Of a stretch of 64,000 bases of DNA, positions 1,158-53,141 are shown piece after piece; within the stretch, counting starts at the first letter, position 1; each line of letters starts with the position of its first letter. The notes under the pieces are model-generated. The model did no database searches. It saw only the letters and a program-made list of their open reading frames with translations, and was not told where the DNA came from. The stretch comes from Loxodes magnus (lineage: Eukaryota; Ciliophora; Karyorelictea; Loxodida; Loxodidae). The stretch spans positions 310,001-374,000 of the forward strand of contig CAMPDV010000230.1 of NCBI GenBank assembly GCA_946699065.1, read 5' to 3'. Made by a program: the position numbers and the translations under genes.

Positions 1158-3299
1158 TCAGTAAACATTAACTTTTTCATAAAATAACAAATATGCTTCT
1201 TGTGAGACTAAAGAACTTTCGCTGACACTAAATTTAAAATCTTACTTGCTAACATTTGAATCATCAAATTTGAGTCAACTTCCATTTCTCTAACTGAAAG
1301 CAACGTAATGACCTGAGTTAAGTCCTCCTATGTGAACTACTATTGATTTTAACTTATAATCTGCTTATTTTTTGTTTATTACACAAAATTCATTTAAATT
1401 TAAAGTAATTCCAAAATTTATTGTTCCTCCTATCTTTTTAAAAGTTGGAAATGTCTAAAATCGTTTAAGGTGAATTACTAAAATTTAAGGAGCATTATAC
1501 AACAGAAATTATTTAGTTATTGCTCCTTTTTTTCTGCACTTCTCACAAAAATAATCATTTGCATTTATATTTTCAGCTTCAAAAAAATTTTCAAGGCATT
1601 TATTCAAACTTCTCTTGCTTGAAATTGGTATCGAAAGATCTAAGAAAGGATCAAATGTATCGGAATTGTTTTAGCAGTGCTTACAAGTTACTCTAGACAT
1701 CATTAAGCCAGCGAATAATTTATCAACGATAGAATTATTTCAATCTTAAAACAAGGTTCAAGCTTCTTCCGCTGTGTAATGATCTTTTTGCATTTGCTTT
1801 TGAATCTTTTTAGGTTTTCTAGGATTTAGCTCATCCTATAAACGGCCAATTATGTAAGTAAAAAATTCTTAACTATCATGTTAACTGTGAGAACTGAATT
1901 TCATGCTAGCAATCTGATGCATTTCTTTTCCTGAAATGTAATTTTTTGATTAGCATCATATTTCTTTCATTAAATTATGAATAGCCACTGAGATCATATC
2001 TCCTTTACCTTATCTTTCCTTTTTATAAATTTCAGCAAGAAAATAATCTCTTAGCTGAACTATACTAGCTAAGCACTAAAGACAACTGTTCGCATAGCAA
2101 TAATAAGCTTTATTGTATATACCAGTTTTTCCATCACTTAACTTAGATTTTATTTTTTCTGTATGCTTACCATTTTATTAGACTTAAGGATTACTTTAAG
2201 GGGAGTTTAAAAAGCTCTTATTCTCTTTAAAGATTATGCTATCCTCAATTTTAGTCGAATTTTTGCTTTGTGATACTGATTCATTTAAATGATAAACTTT
2301 CTATTATTTATTAGATTGCTGCATAATCTGTTGTTTTGATAAACTCAAGGGAGGCTTTTGAATGCTATTTGACTTCTTATTTGATTTAGTTTAAGTTTCA
2401 GAATTTAATTTGTTCGTCTCTTTTTTTTCTTTGTTTTAGTACCTTCTCATAAAATTTTCAACGTTCTATTGGGTTATATAATGATCAATTGAATCTTCTT
2501 GCTAGATATCTTAGTTTTAAAGATTAATTCCTTTTTTATGTTTTCCATTTTGATGATAATCGTGTTCTTTTGTACTTTCAGGTGAAATATTTGGAGAGTT
2601 TTGACGCTTAATTTTTGATTCTTGCTCTTATAGTTAATATCGCTTATTTCTTTTAGAATGATGCCTTTTAGATTTCTTTTCTTTTATTTCAATTTAAACA
2701 TTATTGATTTCAGTTTCTTCTTATTCTTAGTAGTCAAAACTATTAGGCAAAGGCTTACTATAAATATTATCAGCCTAGCTTCTAACAATGATTGGCTCTC
2801 CTCCATAGCTATCATATAAGCATTTTCACTGTTCTTAGCTAACAGTAACATAGTCTTTCTAAAACTCTAAGTCTTTCTTTATTTTCTACTTTTTATTTAG
2901 TAGAGGTCTATTATCTATTTAATCAGGAGGTTCTCCCTTAGTTTTTATGAAGCCTAGCCATTAATTATATCAATCTATGTGCATAATATACCAAACATCT
3001 GATATTGCGTTATTATTTTGCTAGAAATATTCGAATTCTTACTATCTACGCTATTTTAAATTTATCTACTAAGACTTACTGCTTGCTATTTTCCTGTCTT
3101 CTGATATATTTGTGGAATATGAACTCTTAAACTTAGGAAGTGTTATAGAAGGCACCTAAGCTTACTTACATTCATGTTTAATATCCTACTCCAACAACTC
3201 TCCACACTTTCCACAATATTTCGGTCTTTATTTCTAGATCTGTGAAGGTTATTACTTTTTATCAAGTCCACAGCACAGAAGTCATTTAAAAATTTTCAT
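1158..3299 (-). CDS. Ubiquitin-specific protease with DUSP and USP domains, 713 aa
   Basis: Cysteine protease that removes ubiquitin from proteins. Order: start MKIFKWLLCCG; a possible zinc site (CGKCGE...HEC) near residue 50; a DUSP domain at about 95-180 (DVWYIMHIDWYNQW, then DYVTVSQEQWKCLYDSYGGE); a Ser/Lys/Gln-rich linker; and a USP domain from about 385 to the end. Catalytic Cys401 lies in CYANSCLQCL, the QHDSQEF box follows, the zinc Cys pairs are C539/C542 and C565/C568, His664 lies in GHYVAF, and the domain closes with FDDSN. It ends ...AYLLFYEKVNVY-TGA, where USP domains normally end. Seven in-frame TGAs are present. Those at 1275-1277, 1758-1760, 1956-1958, 2826-2828 and 2970-2972 fall on tryptophans typical of the families; 1740-1742 and 3282-3284 are the other two. 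No intron or frameshift. Upstream tandem Trp codons use TGG. Very sure of the family. Confidence 0.95.
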
Positions 3300-16599: not shown

Positions 16600-18060
16600 A
16601 AATTTAGGATGTAGTGAAGTAACTAATTCAGCAAATAAACAATCTTGAGTTAAAAATTAATAAATATAAAGTGCTAATAAAATCCTGAATACAGATTGAG
16701 TTTAAAAGCTTCTAAACATCTGCTTAATTAAGAAATCAAAAGTGTTGAAGGTAAAGCATAATAAATTAAAATTTTAATCAAATAAACCACTAGCAAGTTT
16801 ATGATTGAAGTTATAATGACCCAATAGAGACTGAGCAATCAACTTAAATACTAATCAAACATAAAAAATTAGATATTTATTAAAGTAATAAAAAGAAGAC
16901 CAATAATATGCTGATTCTGTAGAAGGATAGGTACATAAAAATAATTGTTGGATAAATCAGAAATTGCAAAAAAGCGAAAATCTAAAAAACCTAATTAAGA
17001 TTTATTACATATCTAAAGGTGATCTATATAGGAAAAAATATTTTAAGCCAATAAAGAGGTTCCCTTTTTTAAAAAGCAGTCAATAATTTTAATAAAAATA
17101 ACAGGGTTATAATTTATAAGAAAAATTAGGAAAAAGAATTAAAAAATCATCATTTCTTATTACAGAGAAACCTCAAACACTTTGAAGTGAATATTTTTAT
17201 TTAGCATTAAATTTTTATTTCGTGATTAACGTATTAAAGGTGAAAGTAATGCTAATTAATTGATATTTATGATATATAGCTTTATTTGCTTTAAAAATAT
17301 ATTATTTTTAACTAAAAATAAACAGAAAATAATAGCATAATAATTAGCAACAGAATTTTACTCTAAATACTCAACTAAAAGATTTCACTAAAGAAAATTC
17401 TTAAAATAAACTAGTAGAAAACAACAAAATTATTTTTCTGGATAATAATAATCTTAGAAACTTAAGAAAAAGTTGGAACAGCTCTAGCTTGATAAAAAAT
17501 ATATAAAAACACTGCTTTAACTTATAAAAATGTTTGAAGAAAATATAGAAAAGATAGAAAATAATTTAAGAATAATGACTCTAAAAAGTGAAAAATAACT
17601 TTGTGAAAGATGTAAAAAATCAAGATTTAATAATAAAACTAAAAAATAAAGACAAATTTGTTATAAAAAACGAAAAAAAACAATTAAGATTTGCCTAAAA
17701 ATATTACAATAGAAATTGAACTTAAGGAACTAAAAAACAGGCAAAAGAAAAGAATAAAGAAAAATGTTATATGTAATTAAGAATGTAATCTAGTAAGACA
17801 CTGATACATATTAAAAATTTATAAGAGATCATAAGAAAATGCATTGGGAAGAGCTGAAAAATGCTTTCAGATGATATCAAAACTATAGTAAAAAGACAGG
17901 CAATTCTATAAAAGAAAATCATGGAGTAAAGTAATTGGCAAGCCCTTTTATGCCAACAACTTTTAAGCAAACTTATTAATTTAAATTTAATATAATTTAG
18001 ATTAAAAATATTTTATTAAATATATACTTTAAGATAAACTTACTAAACATTTATTATACT
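16600..18060 (+). mobile_element. Retroelement ORF1 relic, family B copy 1
   Basis: A decayed open frame on plus. The 5' part carries a degenerate zinc-knuckle-like ICWFCRRIG. From about 17340 a clear coiled coil follows (KLKKKLEQLQLDKKY, MFEENIEKIENNLRIMT) with CERCKKSRFNNK; near 17775 comes CNQECNLVRH. Reading these needs at least one frame change, so it is not intact. The block 17340-18060 is homologous, in inverted orientation, to 22980-24060, and this shows it is a dispersed repeat. Coiled coil plus Cys/His motifs is typical of ORF1 nucleic-acid chaperones of non-LTR elements. Family assignment rests on motifs only. Confidence 0.6.
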
Positions 18061-18328: not shown

Positions 18329-18677
18329 TATACTGCATTTCGTGAAATCTCGCACTAGATGTCATCATGGGGAAGGGTGGACAAGATCGGAAGACAAGTC
18401 TTACTTGCATGAGAGTTCTCGCTAGCATTAAGAACAATTAACTGACGGGCCTGCTAGTGATTAATTAATAATTCTTATTTGGATCTTATTCAAGAAGACT
18501 GGAACTTTTTATTCAAGATTTAATAATAATTTTTAATAAGCAGATTCCCCATTTGAGAAGCTGACGTGACTCAATGGACGAAAAAAATGACAACAAAGAG
18601 TATGAAAATACCTCATTTTCATATTAAATATTAACATTAAAAAAGCAGCGCTCCAATGAGGTGCTACTTGCTCTATA
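18329..18677 (+). mobile_element. Retroelement 3' end, family A copy 1 (349 bp)
   Basis: Exactly the same length as 25548-25896 and about 97% identical by eye (nine substitutions, no indels). Both copies run from TATACTGCATTTCG to GCTCTATA and are followed by an AT-rich tail of ATTTATTA type, as at the 3' ends of non-LTR retrotransposons. One frame is open throughout when TGA is read as Trp (AREFSLALRTINWLACQW) and ends SSAPMRCYLL. The copy is 5'-truncated, consistent with target-primed reverse transcription. Confidence 0.75.
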
Positions 18678-21139: not shown

Positions 21140-24060
21140 GAATAGCAATAAATAATAGAAGAAATCAAATTTTACTTTAGTAATAATCTAGAAAATGTTC
21201 CTAGCTTCACATAGTCTCTTTGATGCTCTTAAATTACTTTTAATTATTCTTCCTACATTTCTAATAATTATTAATTTGAGAAATTTATATCAGTTTCATC
21301 GAATAAATATTCCTTAAGTAGTTGAAAATAAGATGTCATATTTCGATTTTTTTATTTACCTGATTTTTCTCAAATTCATCTAAATGTCTTTTTTAACTTT
21401 CTTAATCTATTCCACATTATTATCAAAATTGTTGCATTTTTTTTTCTTTTTTACAAGTTCTTTATGTATTAAATTAGCTCACTTGAACCAGCTATTAGAA
21501 ATTTTCTTATTGCTTTATAATATGGGAGAGTTTTTTTGATATTTCAGCTTTCTTTTTTTCTAATATGTTTTTGATAAAATCTATATTCTACGAATCTAAT
21601 ATTGTTATTTCTCCACATATAATGATGGTTCTATGCTTTCAAATTCATAATTACCTCAAACTATTTTAGTTAGATTTAGTTTATTGAGCAATTTAACTGC
21701 TTAACTTTTATTAAATTTTCTTGCATTTAATTTCTTAGTTAATATAACTTTTTCTTACTAATAATATCAGCATTTCTCAATAATGTGAAATTCGTCTTTT
21801 TCCTCATTTTTATATAGACTACATAATATCACTTTCTAACAAGGATCTTACCTTTAATGTCTAGGGGCATTACTGTATTTGGTTCTTAGTCTAAACAAAT
21901 AGTAGATTTTCAAATTTTTAGCGATGCGATATTCACTATATTTAAATGCGCAAAATTCTTTTATTTTAATCTGAATCTATGTTTTCTGCATATGCTGAGG
22001 CGTTCTGCAAAGTTATCGATAATCGCTTTTGCTGCAAGTTCTTTTTTTATATTTTGTTAAAGTTTAAAGCCATAATCTTCAAAGTTTTATTTTTTTAGAT
22101 TCAGGTTTAATTTACTATCTTTACTTTATATTTTAATTAGTTATAATAATGTATAATTATAATTAAAAATGATTAATGACTATTGTTACATTTTGACTTT
22201 AAGCTAGCTACTTAGATAAGAGTTGACAGACCCTCGAGGATATTCTTAATTTATTCGAGGTTCCTGCTTGCTTAAAATCTCGACTGACTACTCGCTCCTA
22301 ATCTTTATCTACTGGTTCAGGATTCAAATTTCCTGACTTCACTTATCGTTGGATAAGATATATGATAAAAAACGATGCTAAATCATGAAGGCGATCTACA
22401 ACTTTTAACACAAATAACTAATTTAAGAAAAATTTGAAATTTGAAAGAATCCTTAAGTCAAGATCAAAAAAGAATTAACTATTGGAGAAACTTGAATGTC
22501 TCAAGATTGAATCATGATTTGTTCAATAATGATTCAAGAAAGATTCAAAAAGAATTAAAAATAATAATAGTATAAAAGAACACTAAAAATATTATTTTAA
22601 CTTAATTCGTGACAAACCAAAAAATGGTGACGTCATTTTTATTTATTCATTCATGCGGTTCAAGAAAAATTAAATTTAAGCTCCATTTTTTCGATTTTAT
22701 TTGAAAATAGGTGATTATTTTCAAATTTTATTTTATTAGTTCTTATTATGTGTATCACTCTTCATAATTTTTTGTGCCTATTTTAGTGATTTATCTTGTT
22801 TTGTGATGCTTTTTCTAAGTTCTTTTTTATTATGAATAGGGTAATTTTTATTAAATTTAGATTATTTTTGCAGGTCAAAGAAGTTTACTTTAACTTTTCT
22901 TGAATACCACGTTCTTTCTTTAAACTTATTATCTTGTTCATTTATACTTTATTCATAAGCGTATTACTTCTTAGTCACGCCTATATATAATAAAGTTTTA
23001 GTAAGTTTATCTTAAAGTATATATTTTATATAAAAATTTCAATCTAAATCATATTAAATTCATATTATTAAATTTGTTTAAAAGTTGTTGGCCAAAAAAG
23101 GGTTTGTCAACTACCTTACTCCATTATTTTCTTTTTATAGAAAAGCCTGTCTTTTTACTATAATTTGGATATAATCAGAAAATTTTCCAGCTACTTCCAT
23201 CTATTATTTTGTATTCTCTTTCATTTTTTAATTTGTAGAAGTGTCATACGTTATGACATTCCTAATTACAAAATATCCTTTTTTCTTTATCCTCTTCTTT
23301 TACCTGTTTTTAAGTTCATTTAGTTCAATTTCCACTTGAATTATTATTAGGTCAATCATAATTGAAATTTTTTATTTATTATTATATAAAAATAAATAGG
23401 GAGGAGCAATCCTCCAACTGACATTAACTTAAGATCTAATTCCAGGATGTACCCATGGGCGAAGAACTGAACAAGAAACTGAGTAGGAGCCAAGAGAGAA
23501 GACGAAGACTAAAGAGTTATCAATAAAGTTATTGATGAAAGATGCCAGATTCTAAGGCCTCTTAGGGAGCTTTCCGATCCCACCCTATAGAAGACGAGAC
23601 TCAAAAGGATGCTAGCACTGTGGAACTGTGGAAGACTTCAGAAAATACTTTTTTGACTTTAAAATCTTTATTAAAGAGCTGCACACCATTGAGGTGCTAC
23701 GCGTTCTCTAATCCCATTTATTTTTTATTTATAAATTACAAATTTGTCTCTATCTTTTATTTTATTTTTTAATCTTGATTTTTTACATCTTTTATAAAAC
23801 TATTTTTCACTTTTTAGAGTCATTATTCATTAATCGTTATCTAGCTTTTCTATATATGCTTCAAACATTTGTATAAGTTAAAGCAGTGTTTATGATATTT
23901 CCTTACAATATATATTTTTTTATCATGTTTGAGTTGTTCCAACTTTTTTCTTAAATTTCTAAATCACTACCATCTAGAGGAATAGTTTTGTTGTTTGCTA
24001 CTAGTTTTTAAGTTTATTCTCTAGTAAAGTCATTTAATAAATTCATTTTATAAGTCATTA
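21140..24060 (-). mobile_element. Non-LTR-like retroelement, family B copy 2, with nested insertion
   Basis: Reads on minus from 24060 to 21140. The first part (23750-24060) matches copy 1's coiled coil (RNLRKKLEQLKHDKK, IMTLKSEKQFYKRCKKSR). 22980-23400 matches the following segment. Between them lies the plus-strand insertion 23400-23710. Downstream, 22080-21650 encodes FAERLSICRKHRFRLKQK, then in another frame YYLFRLRTKYSNAP...ILCSLYKNEEKDEFHIIEKC. The last piece resembles the C-terminal cysteine/histidine region of LINE ORF2 proteins (C..C...E..H....C after an RLR motif). Frameshifts show it is inactive. The reverse-transcriptase core is not seen, so it may be lost or too decayed. Confidence 0.6.
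23400..23710 (+). mobile_element. Nested retroelement 3' end, family C
   Basis: GC-rich 310-bp segment interrupting family B copy 2. It starts with a hairpin (stem 23400-23405 with 23410-23415, loop GCAA) and ends with GAGGTGCTACGCGTTCTCTA, the 3'-terminal motif shared with family A and with 46695-46970. An ATTTATTTTTTATTTA tail follows. The insertion splits a repeat that is continuous in copy 1 at 17.6 kb, so it must be younger than that element. Confidence 0.65.
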
Positions 24061-24239: not shown

Positions 24240-25470
24240 CTTAATCTCTTATGATAAAAATAAAAAATTGATAAATGATTAGAACCCTTAGAAAGATTTT
24301 AAATAATAGACTAATTCTTAAGAGATGGATAGATAGATCAATCTAATCGAAAAGAGTTTAAGATAAAACTTCGACCAGAGAATCAGTTAACTGGAGTAAA
24401 CCTAGCTCAACTAATAATCATATCCAGAACCAAAAAATAAGAATCTATCCCTTAGTTTCACCTCTTAAAAAAGAAAAATTAGATGTTGACATTGCAAAAA
24501 ACATGGGCATAGGGTAAAACAAAGCTAGAAATTTAAATAAAATTAAGAAACAGAAAGAGGAATTAAAAACTTTTCCAAGATTTATTATTCGCTATGCGGA
24601 AGATTCTTTTAGAAAAAAATATTTCAGCCATATTTAGGAGCTTCCAAATTATGGATGATCTAAGAAGACTAGAGAAATGATATTATGGCATTCATTTTCA
24701 AGTGTTATCAAGAAAAGCAATTAATAAATTTATAAAGATTTTACGGCTCAGGAAGATCAGTAGAATACGATATGGAAACATTCTGATGATGAAAGATTTC
24801 TTAAAACTTTATTTCTTGGTAAGCTAAATAAAGGTGAAGTTACTTTAATATATTATAGTTTTTATTGTTATTTTTAAACAATTTTATTAAAAAATCTAAA
24901 CAATTATTTTTATTATATAAATATAGATTTGTTATCAGTTTATAACAAGATTTATAAGATCATGTGGACGATGAGACCACACACTGAATTTGTTACAAAA
25001 TAGGATATTAATAACAGATATCAAGAAATAGAATGCGATATTGTTAGACTAGATGAATAAATGGGAATAGACTTTTAAAAATATGAAAATGCCCTTTAGC
25101 AAGTAAAAGAAATTAAGCAAAGGTTAGAGAAATTAGAGAGCTAATAGCCATAAAAAATCAAGATTCATGATAATAAAAGAACAACCCATGACTTAAGAAA
25201 AATACTTTAAAAAAAGTGCTACATATGTGGCAGTCAATATCATCTTTGAAGAAGATGCTAGGGAAATAAGGAAATTAGAAAAAAGATTTGAAATGAATTA
25301 ACCATGTTTTATCCTTACCCGGATGGTTAATTATGACGTAAGAAGTTAACTCCAAGACCGTTCGGAAAGCTCGGAAGTGAACTTGGGTGGAGACATCTCG
25401 GAGTCCAAGACCCTGTAAAAGGTAATACAGGGGGGTTATGGATCTTTTAAGGGAACACTCCATTAACCTT
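24240..25470 (+). mobile_element. Retroelement ORF1 relic(s) with two zinc knuckles
   Basis: Two overlapping coding textures. In one frame EMDRQINLIEKSLRQNF... leads to RCWHCKKHGHRVKQS at 24484-24525 (CCHC with the last Cys changed). In another frame, 24570-25460 reads FPRFIIRYAEDSFRKKYFS, a coiled coil, and then a complete CCHC knuckle at 25217-25258 (CYICGSQYHLWRRC, its Trp from TGA 25247-25249). Downstream is GKLGSELGWRHLGVQDP...LWIFQGNTP, similar to the end of the 26.3-27.3 kb relic. Internal 24819-24926 has GTAAG...ATAG borders and could be an in-frame 108-nt intron or an AT insertion. It is followed after 80 bp by the family A 3' end. Confidence 0.6.
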
Positions 25471-25547
25471 AAAATTTTTAATTTAATTTAATATAAATAT
25501 GGATTTCAGTCACAGATAGAAAAACTTATAGGTAGTTTGTTGCAGTG

Positions 25548-25896
25548 TATACTGCATTTCGTGAAATCTCGCACTAGATGTCATCATGGGGAAGGGTGGA
25601 CAAGCTCGGAAGGCAAACCTAACTTGCACGAGAGTTCTCGCTAGCATTAAGAACAATTAACTGACTGGCCTGCTAGTGATTAATTAATAATTCTTATTTA
25701 GATCTTATTCAAGAAGACTGGAGCTTTTTATTCAAGATTTAATAATAATTTTTAATAAGCAGATTCCCCATTTGAGAAGCTGACGTGACTCAATGGACGA
25801 AAAAAATGACAACAAAGAGTATGAAAATACCTCATTTTCATATTAAATATTAACATTAAAAAAGCAGCGCTCCAATGAGGTGCTACTTGCTCTATA
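25548..25896 (+). mobile_element. Retroelement 3' end, family A copy 2 (349 bp)
   Basis: Near-identical partner of 18329-18677. Here it directly follows an ORF1 relic, with no room for a reverse-transcriptase ORF between them. That suggests a non-autonomous ORF1-plus-3'-end element or an internal deletion. An ATTTATTTATT tail follows. Confidence 0.75.
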
Positions 25897-51968: not shown

Positions 51969-53141
51969 TCATTGAACTACTACAATATACATTTAATAGC
52001 TTGTATTCATATATTTTTCATATCTATTTTCATTTACTTTGGCTATAAACATTTAATTTTATATATTATTTGAAGATTCTATATCACTAATTGTGAGAAG
52101 TTAGAAAAGATTAAATTATTTTTATATGTGAAAGAAGTAAAAATTAATGATATGAGTTTTTCTTTTTAATTAGAAAATATAAAATTTTTAAGTGTAGTAG
52201 TCATTCTTTGCTAAGGATTTCCAGATTCCTATCTTTAGATCGTATATATAAAGAGATATCTACTGAGATTATTAATAACTGTAAATAAAATTTCGAACTT
52301 TGACTGCTGAAGCAAAAGAGTCGCTATATAACCACGTACTTCTAAGTTTTTCTCCATGCTCGATTCATTTAAATCCTCCTAAGTCAAAAATATAAGAATA
52401 TTTCAATCCTTTCTAAAGGAAGTTGAATACAAAGCATTAATTATTCGAAAGTTACACTGTTTAGCATGCAGATTTTTGGGGAAGTTTAGTATTTAAGGTG
52501 ATTCACTTCTGACTCATCAAGTAAAAGATTCTAATTTACTTAGAAGCAAGATCTTCCTAGGAATACCCTCCCATTACATAAATCTGGTTATTTATTAGAA
52601 TTTAGCCATGCTCATAGACTTCTTCATTTAAATCAGGTAACTAATAGAATTTTTACCGTTTTCAATCGAAAAAGATGCAACTTTTATCTTAAATACCTGA
52701 TATCATGAAAGTCTTATAATTAGATGAGCTTGTCCTGTGACTTTCTCTTTGCATCATATAAAATTATTATATCTACGTAGGCTAATAAATCTGAAGCATT
52801 TACCCTGAAATGATCAAATGTGAATGATTTAAAGAATAAGTTTCTATATAGTCAAAGTTAGAGTTTGTTGGTTCTATACTTGTAGACTAGGTTTGAATTT
52901 GATTATTCTTGATGGAATAACTTATTAGAGTGGAACTTTAAGGTATGAAAGTCATATAGCAATTAGTCGAATAACTTAAGTTGGAGCAAATCTAACATTT
53001 TACAATATTTAAAGGAATTCTCGAAAAACCCTGGGCAAGCTTATTATTCTACCTTCTCAGTCCTTGCTTAAATACAAAAAGCAGTTTGCTGATATATTTT
53101 TACTTCGCCTAAATACAGAGGTCCCTCCTTTATATCTCCAT
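51969..53141 (-). CDS. Kelch-repeat protein, about 390 aa
   Basis: ATG at 53139-53141. The N-terminal part (about 120 residues) is basic, with a lone KCQICSN. From about residue 120, kelch-type beta-propeller repeats are visible: FMISGIQDKSCIFFDWKRQK, NNQIYVMGGYSQEDLASKQI, IFYLMSQKWITLNTKLP, YIFDLGGFKWIEHGEKL, ISLYIYDLKIGIWKSL. Double Gly (GGYS, GGF) and the later Trp (SQKW, FKW, GIW) have kelch spacing. Several of those Trp are TGA: DWKRQ, QKWIT, FKWIE. Likely an interaction scaffold. The next in-frame TGA is 51969-51971, but the last 70 codons are AT-biased, so the C-terminus is uncertain. Confidence 0.75.

Follow-up and report, generated by a model that had tools for sequence, protein, structure and literature searches.

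Near one end of the 64-kb stretch of Loxodes magnus DNA analysed here (hereafter the window), a ubiquitin protease gene is crossed by in-frame TGA codons. We asked whether TGA encodes tryptophan in this gene, as the initial annotation had proposed, or whether the TGAs are nonsense mutations in a decaying copy, and how such a gene would end.

TGA codons inside the DUSP/USP gene

The gene and the sites discussed below are as follows:

1158..3299, minus strand: DUSP and USP (ubiquitin-specific protease) gene, intact; 713 codons plus a TGA stop, no intron seen
2778..2999, minus strand: DUSP domain, residues 101-174 (Pfam PF06337, 66.3 bits, profile positions 2-74 of 77)
1179..2126, minus strand: UCH/USP catalytic domain, residues 392-707 (Pfam PF00443, 171.5 bits, profile positions 1-254 of 254)
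3282..3284, minus strand: internal TGA, residue 6, not within conserved sequence; Lys in both paralogues reaching this residue
2970..2972, minus strand: internal TGA read as Trp, residue 110; Trp in 119/121 homologues, TGG in paralogue L010
2826..2828, minus strand: internal TGA read as Trp, residue 158; Trp in 119/121 homologues, TGA in both paralogues reaching this residue
1956..1958, minus strand: internal TGA read as Trp, residue 448; Trp in 120/121 homologues, TGG in paralogues L011 and L012
1758..1760, minus strand: internal TGA read as Trp, residue 514; Trp in 121/121 homologues, TGG in paralogues L012 and L014
1740..1742, minus strand: internal TGA, residue 520; Arg in 120/121 homologues, TGG in paralogue L011 and TGA in the other four
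1275..1277, minus strand: internal TGA read as Trp, residue 675; Trp in 121/121 homologues, TGA in 5/5 paralogues
1158..1160, minus strand: terminal TGA read as stop, residue 714, six codons past the conserved LLFY

Once TAA, TAG and TGA are all read, an uninterrupted frame of 713 codons starts at the ATG at 3299. As the initial annotation stated, it holds seven internal TGAs (residues 6, 110, 158, 448, 514, 520 and 675) and no frameshift; the Pfam matches of both domains run nearly end to end without one and are separated by ~220 residues that match no Pfam family. Within the DUSP domain, W110 and W158 are encoded by TGA and W103 and W114 by TGG; within the UCH/USP domain, TGA stands for W448, W514, W520 and W675. 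Cys401 is invariant across 121 homologues and, with His664 and the Asp679-Asp680 pair also present, makes up what we take to be the catalytic residues. The best solved-structure match was USP15 (9vvv_A, E = 4.9e-49), and the combination of DUSP and UCH domains with a cysteine at the catalytic position suggests a USP4/USP15-like deubiquitinase. A search for introns in the 64-kb window gave nothing above control splice pairs, open reading frame lists under codes 4 and 11 held next to nothing in the window, and patterns back-translated by the standard code found no loci related to this protein in viral and genome contigs.

To assign TGA, the window protein was aligned, with TAA, TAG and TGA masked, to 121 homologues (125 fetched proteins minus the more distant P0006-P0009), taken mostly from the best 120 of 7,133 matches to a profile that included the window's own protein. 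Five of the six internal TGAs with aligned homologues fell on columns at least 98% Trp. These are the five that the initial annotation had placed at Trp sites of the family, and its positions were exact (minus-strand codons starting at 2972, 2828, 1958, 1760 and 1277). With the terminal TGA counted as a miss, five of seven aligned TGAs lie on the 13 Trp-majority columns among 566 aligned positions (hypergeometric P = 5.5e-8, from homologues that are nearly all animal USP4/USP15 and thus not independent samples); the two off Trp columns are the terminal TGA and TGA520. The annotation had held that a TGA on a non-Trp column would speak against its proposal. Judged by animal homologues, which carry Arg, residue 520 is such a case; the gene's own paralogues, however, have TGG in one instance and TGA in four, so that the residue is Trp in this lineage.

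Two further tests agreed with the masked columns. When each of 20 residues was placed at TGA, Trp scored best in the UCH domain (171.5 bits; Tyr next, 162.5, a gap of 9.0) and in the DUSP domain (66.3 bits; Phe next, 59.6, a gap of 6.7). Among the window gene and five own-genome paralogues aligned with stops masked, TGA stood opposite TGA or TGG in 110 of 129 pairings, and TGG opposite one of the two in 30 of 36; for eight other USP genes of the genome the figure for TGA was 154 of 240. A masked codon-by-profile score also ranked Trp first for TGA (4 positions), by a method that named the standard residue for 24 of 37 ordinary codons and misassigned 13; the DUSP part, which aligned in the full 121-homologue alignment, failed to align in this HMM. 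The comparisons thus support the proposal that TGA encodes Trp inside the window protease gene, and point to the same meaning within genes as in nuclear code table 27.

Neighbouring window genes also contain TGAs, and Trp was favoured in one of the three others tried, a Kelch-repeat gene that gives a second example:

52503..52505, minus strand: TGA read as Trp, residue 213 of the Kelch-repeat gene starting at 53141

Its best model gave 44.5 bits with Trp vs 37.7-38.3 with Arg, Phe or Ser, all below the model cut-off of 70. Trp was neutral in a thioredoxin gene (24.7 bits vs 25.2 and 24.4) and not better in a SPRY gene (33.6 bits; Phe 36.4, Arg 34.0). A home-made gene finder ended the Kelch gene (52503-53141) at this very TGA, although by homology it is Trp, which illustrates how a dual-meaning codon misleads annotation. 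Training of the finder presupposed TGA stops, which makes its predicted stops partly circular; in a sole-stop test TGA came ahead of TAA by 91 and of TAG by 106 log units, while among five control codons AAT was only 8 log units behind TGA and, without retraining, TTT 0.3 behind. Elsewhere the window holds a 300-nt direct repeat (97%; 18329-18628 and 25548-25847), a 137-nt inverted repeat (88%; 17507-17643 and 23755-23891) and, near them, zinc-knuckle-like predicted peptides (24325-24792 and 24962-25824), which together, around 17.5-26 kb, are perhaps a mobile element. In the genome assembly (705,730,643 bases, 7,843 contigs), USP genes cluster on contigs C1431, C1234, C365, C606, C4067 and C3033. 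Many are short (open frames of about 335 aa) and some have identical scores; the clusters look as if the ubiquitin proteases had expanded recently.

Glutamine codons, short introns and gene ends

The other two standard stop codons were examined in the same way. At TAA/TAG, Gln was the best of 10 residues tried in the UCH domain (171.5 bits; Lys next, 165.7), and led Lys by just 0.5 bits in the DUSP domain (66.3 vs 65.8). The masked codon-by-profile score put Gln first for both TAA (10 positions) and TAG (6). The window gene has 32 TAA and 18 TAG codons in frame, beside 14 CAA and 6 CAG; 14 USP genes (8,092 codons) have 351 TAA, 166 TAG, 116 CAA and 54 CAG. Read this way, TAA and TAG would both encode Gln here, as in table 27.

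Four paralogues require an intron just upstream of the USP domain end to regain the conserved ending, after which they reach TGA within 4-8 codons. The most natural reading gives introns of 16-19 nt, with alternative splice choices possible for three of the four; L. magnus introns have a mean of 19.3 and a mode of 17 nt (PMC11441545).

The window gene itself ends in TGA, which the initial annotation missed. The stop comes 39 codons after the last internal TGA (residue 675), and GC content drops from 0.27 in the 60 nt before the LLFY point to 0.17 in the 60 nt after the TGA. To see whether TGA ends other genes, we collected USP tails from 80 places hand-picked from genome match lists (13 of the 80 without the end motif) and 10 further loci; seven run-on tails (L053, L059, L060, L064, L089, L093 and L096) were dropped by eye and 65 distinct tails kept. 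TGA occurs within 10 codons of the USP domain end in 48 of these 65, exactly four codons after it in 32. For Ras-family genes, the first 110 of 150 places were taken, of which 30 lacked a CC/CxC motif by the rule used and 80 were counted; TGA lies within four codons after CC/CxC in 66 of the 80, and many motif-less tails, such as five Ran-like ones, still end in TGA. On contig C196, two close eRF1-like genes (L016 and L017), separated by 35 kb, both end DEDFL-TGA, with more TGAs just after. NIKS and YxCxxxF are the usual eRF1 motifs; L016 and L017 keep NIKS and have FLCENTF at the place of YxCxxxF. These gene ends argue for TGA as a stop in this genome, again as in table 27, in which, for L. 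magnus, TAA/TAG are Gln and UGA is Trp or the only stop (PMC11441545).

Among the 17 USP tails that lack TGA, TAA follows after 3-6 codons in 11, where TGA sits in most others, and the other six show no TGA or TAA within 10 codons. Of the codons found at the stop position of these tails, TAA is the most strongly enriched (expected 4.0, P = 3.3e-4), a count from genomic sequence that is subject to family relatedness and assembly errors, as are the Ras-family counts. There, TAA occurs in 11 of the 14 tails without TGA within four codons (expected 3.1, P = 1.1e-5); one of the 11, L134, is doubtful, its frame being shifted and a TGA lying five codons further on. The tails with TAA at the stop position, L134 left aside, are:

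USP tails: L001, L002, L008, L022, L032, L044, L052, L070, L083, L084, L088
Ras-family tails: L128, L141, L169, L172, L177, L179, L187, L206, L208, L209

The coding signal falls after the USP-tail TAAs much as it does after TGAs (-0.224 vs -0.236 log units per codon). In the USP tails with TAA, a search for GT-AG introns of 15-30 nt that would lead to a nearby TGA found none. The similar tails L083 and L077 read QKRN-TAA and QKRN-TGA, and their translations agree over the codons that follow. TAG without TGA or TAA within four codons was seen in 2 of 80 Ras-family tails, both of which look like chance motifs: L202 continues to a CKC-TGA end and L153 lies in a shifted frame. Outside these counts, the Ras-family tail L124, which has no CC/CxC, reads KCEKCLIF-TAA at its end, a sequence that would be consistent with a CaaX box terminated by TAA.

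Tryptophan tRNA genes

The initial annotation had suggested looking for a tRNA-Trp with a UCA anticodon; with the single pattern used genome-wide it was not found (30 matches vs 67 in a reversed control). Several UCA-pattern matches recur as families, and the most tRNA-like family (3 of 7 members checked) gave no tRNA by ARAGORN or Rfam. What was found instead is a tRNA whose CCA anticodon sits on a shortened stem. The 64-kb window contains no tRNA genes; over the genome the CCA pattern gave 128 matches vs 13 in the control, and among the 100 CCA matches listed, 96 fall in two tandem arrays:

C67:482293-491213 (L220): tRNA-Trp(CCA) array, 48 genes, spacing about 187 nt
C148:157282-171862 (L212, L221): tRNA-Trp(CCA) array, at least 61 genes (48 listed plus 13 beyond), spacing 241 nt

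The first pair of the anticodon stem (27:43) is broken, as A.C or U.C, in all 79 distinct array-linked copies read (48 from L220, 28 from L221, two from L212 and one from L216). The bodies are nearly identical in 47/48 copies on C67 and 28/28 on C148, and five array copies scanned scored 58-59 bits as tRNA in Rfam. Two dispersed copies on C110 have the first stem pair intact, and a copy on C12 gave no tRNA by ARAGORN. With a broken 27:43 pair, a CCA anticodon and an otherwise good tRNA, the array genes are predicted to encode 4-bp-stem tRNA-Trp(CCA), a type that raises UGA readthrough in reporters and is already known from Loxodes (PMC13092985).

We propose that UGA is most likely translated as Trp by this tRNA-Trp(CCA) with its four-pair anticodon stem, the genes of which would have been amplified in the two arrays; decoding by the array tRNA is inferred. 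At the last UGA, eRF1 would win because of the nearby poly(A) tail, a context rule taken from the literature, in which eRF1 prevails near the transcript end (Swart 2016, PMC4967479).

Alternative readings and known systems

The observed coding meanings, intact gene, stop position and tRNA genes are best explained by an ordinary protease gene of a karyorelict ciliate in nuclear code table 27, with TAA/TAG as Gln and TGA as Trp in the body and stop near the mRNA end, Trp most likely being delivered by the 4-bp-stem tRNA and eRF1 acting at the last UGA; we consider this explanation as a whole almost certain. The closest competitor, which we regard as very unlikely, is another code in which all codons can be sense, either that of Condylostoma, where all three codons are also stops, or that of the dinoflagellate Amoebophrya sp. 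Kv. The sense meanings of the three codons are identical in these codes, and TAA occurs at gene ends here too, as in Condylostoma (PMC4967479). UGA, however, makes up 0.042% of codons in C. magnum (PMC4967479) vs 69 of 8,092, or 0.85%, in the 14 USP genes here, and TAG as sole stop was not convincingly seen in the 80 Ras-family tails. Within its genus, Amoebophrya sp. Kv is AT-rich, and UAA makes up 58% of its in-frame stops, UAG 32.3% and UGA 9.7% (PMC12005148), comparable to the 32/18/7 of the window gene, but such stops occur in only about half of its genes, at 13.6 per 549 residues (PMC12005148) vs 57 in 713 here. The 16-19 nt introns here agree with L. magnus (PMC11441545).

It is still harder to credit that the gene is a decaying pseudogene and its TGAs nonsense mutations. 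Its 57 internal standard stop codons over 713 residues would fit such a view, yet both domains run end to end without a frameshift, and at the 13 Trp-majority columns the window has 5 TGA, 2 TGG, 3 Tyr/Phe, 3 other residues and no TAG or TAA. Moreover, each of the 14 USP genes compared has TGAs (69 TGA vs 31 TGG in total), as do the neighbouring genes, and its closest paralogue in the genome shares just 46% identity across residues 1-710. A mitochondrial or mycoplasma-type bacterial origin, although TGA = Trp is common in both, can be practically dismissed, since TAA/TAG are Gln here, the encoded ubiquitin protease is of eukaryotic type, the assembly measures 706 Mb, and code 4 leaves only three window frames of at least 100 residues, the longest 134.

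The novelty that the initial annotation implied is not supported: TGA = Trp is part of the published karyorelict code (PMC11441545), and this gene is one clean example that alone changes nothing. More deserving of a second look are UAA as a stop and the arrays of tRNA genes. On the genomic counts, Loxodes probably has two dual-meaning stops, UGA (Trp/stop) and UAA (Gln/stop in roughly one gene in 6-8 of the USP and Ras families; 11/65 and 10/80), with UAG purely Gln and the Trp reading of UGA resting on large tandem arrays of 4-bp-stem tRNA-Trp(CCA). Seah 2022 reportedly noted that UAA may serve as the stop in a small minority of karyorelict transcripts; our result would then put counts on a feature already suspected and would not be its first mention. 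UAA, but not UAG, is depleted just before stops in L. magnus (PMC11441545). If UAA is a stop, a UAA near the gene end would terminate too, which would directly explain a depletion confined to UAA. The UGA-only description would then be incomplete, gene predictions required to end at UGA would extend into 3' regions, and both the code annotation and the C-termini predicted for many Loxodes genes would change.

Compared with known systems, the closest is the karyorelict code of Loxodes and Parduczia (table 27), which shares TAA/TAG as Gln, the double use of TGA (Trp within genes, stop at their ends) and introns near 17 nt. UGA usage in the 14 USP genes (0.85%) is far above the 0.120% of Parduczia (PMC4967479). 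A second difference concerns the stops: the L. magnus paper describes UGA as the only one (PMC11441545), whereas a minority of the USP and Ras-family genes here look as if TAA ended them. Further papers used were PMC10553269 and PMC11687900. The Condylostoma code (table 28) is similar in that any of the 64 codons can be sense, context determines the ends and TAA can terminate genes (PMC4967479); it differs in its rare UGA (0.042%) and in using TAG as a stop as well (PMC4967479). Heterotrich introns are 15-16 nt (PMC11441545) vs 16-19 nt here. The main text of the L. magnus genome paper (PMC11441545) does not mention tRNA, and titles and listings gave no literature on arrays of such tRNA-Trp genes, the Loxodes tRNA paper itself lying outside that coverage. 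4-bp-stem tRNA-Trp(CCA), with the same CCA anticodon and broken first pair, also occurs in Blastocrithidia, Condylostoma, Blepharisma and Loxodes (PMC13092985); the tandem arrays are a feature of this genome, without mention for the known tRNAs in the account of PMC13092985. The window protein, finally, shares the DUSP and USP domains and the catalytic Cys with the USP4/USP15 family, whose GNTC before and at that Cys reads AYYC here.
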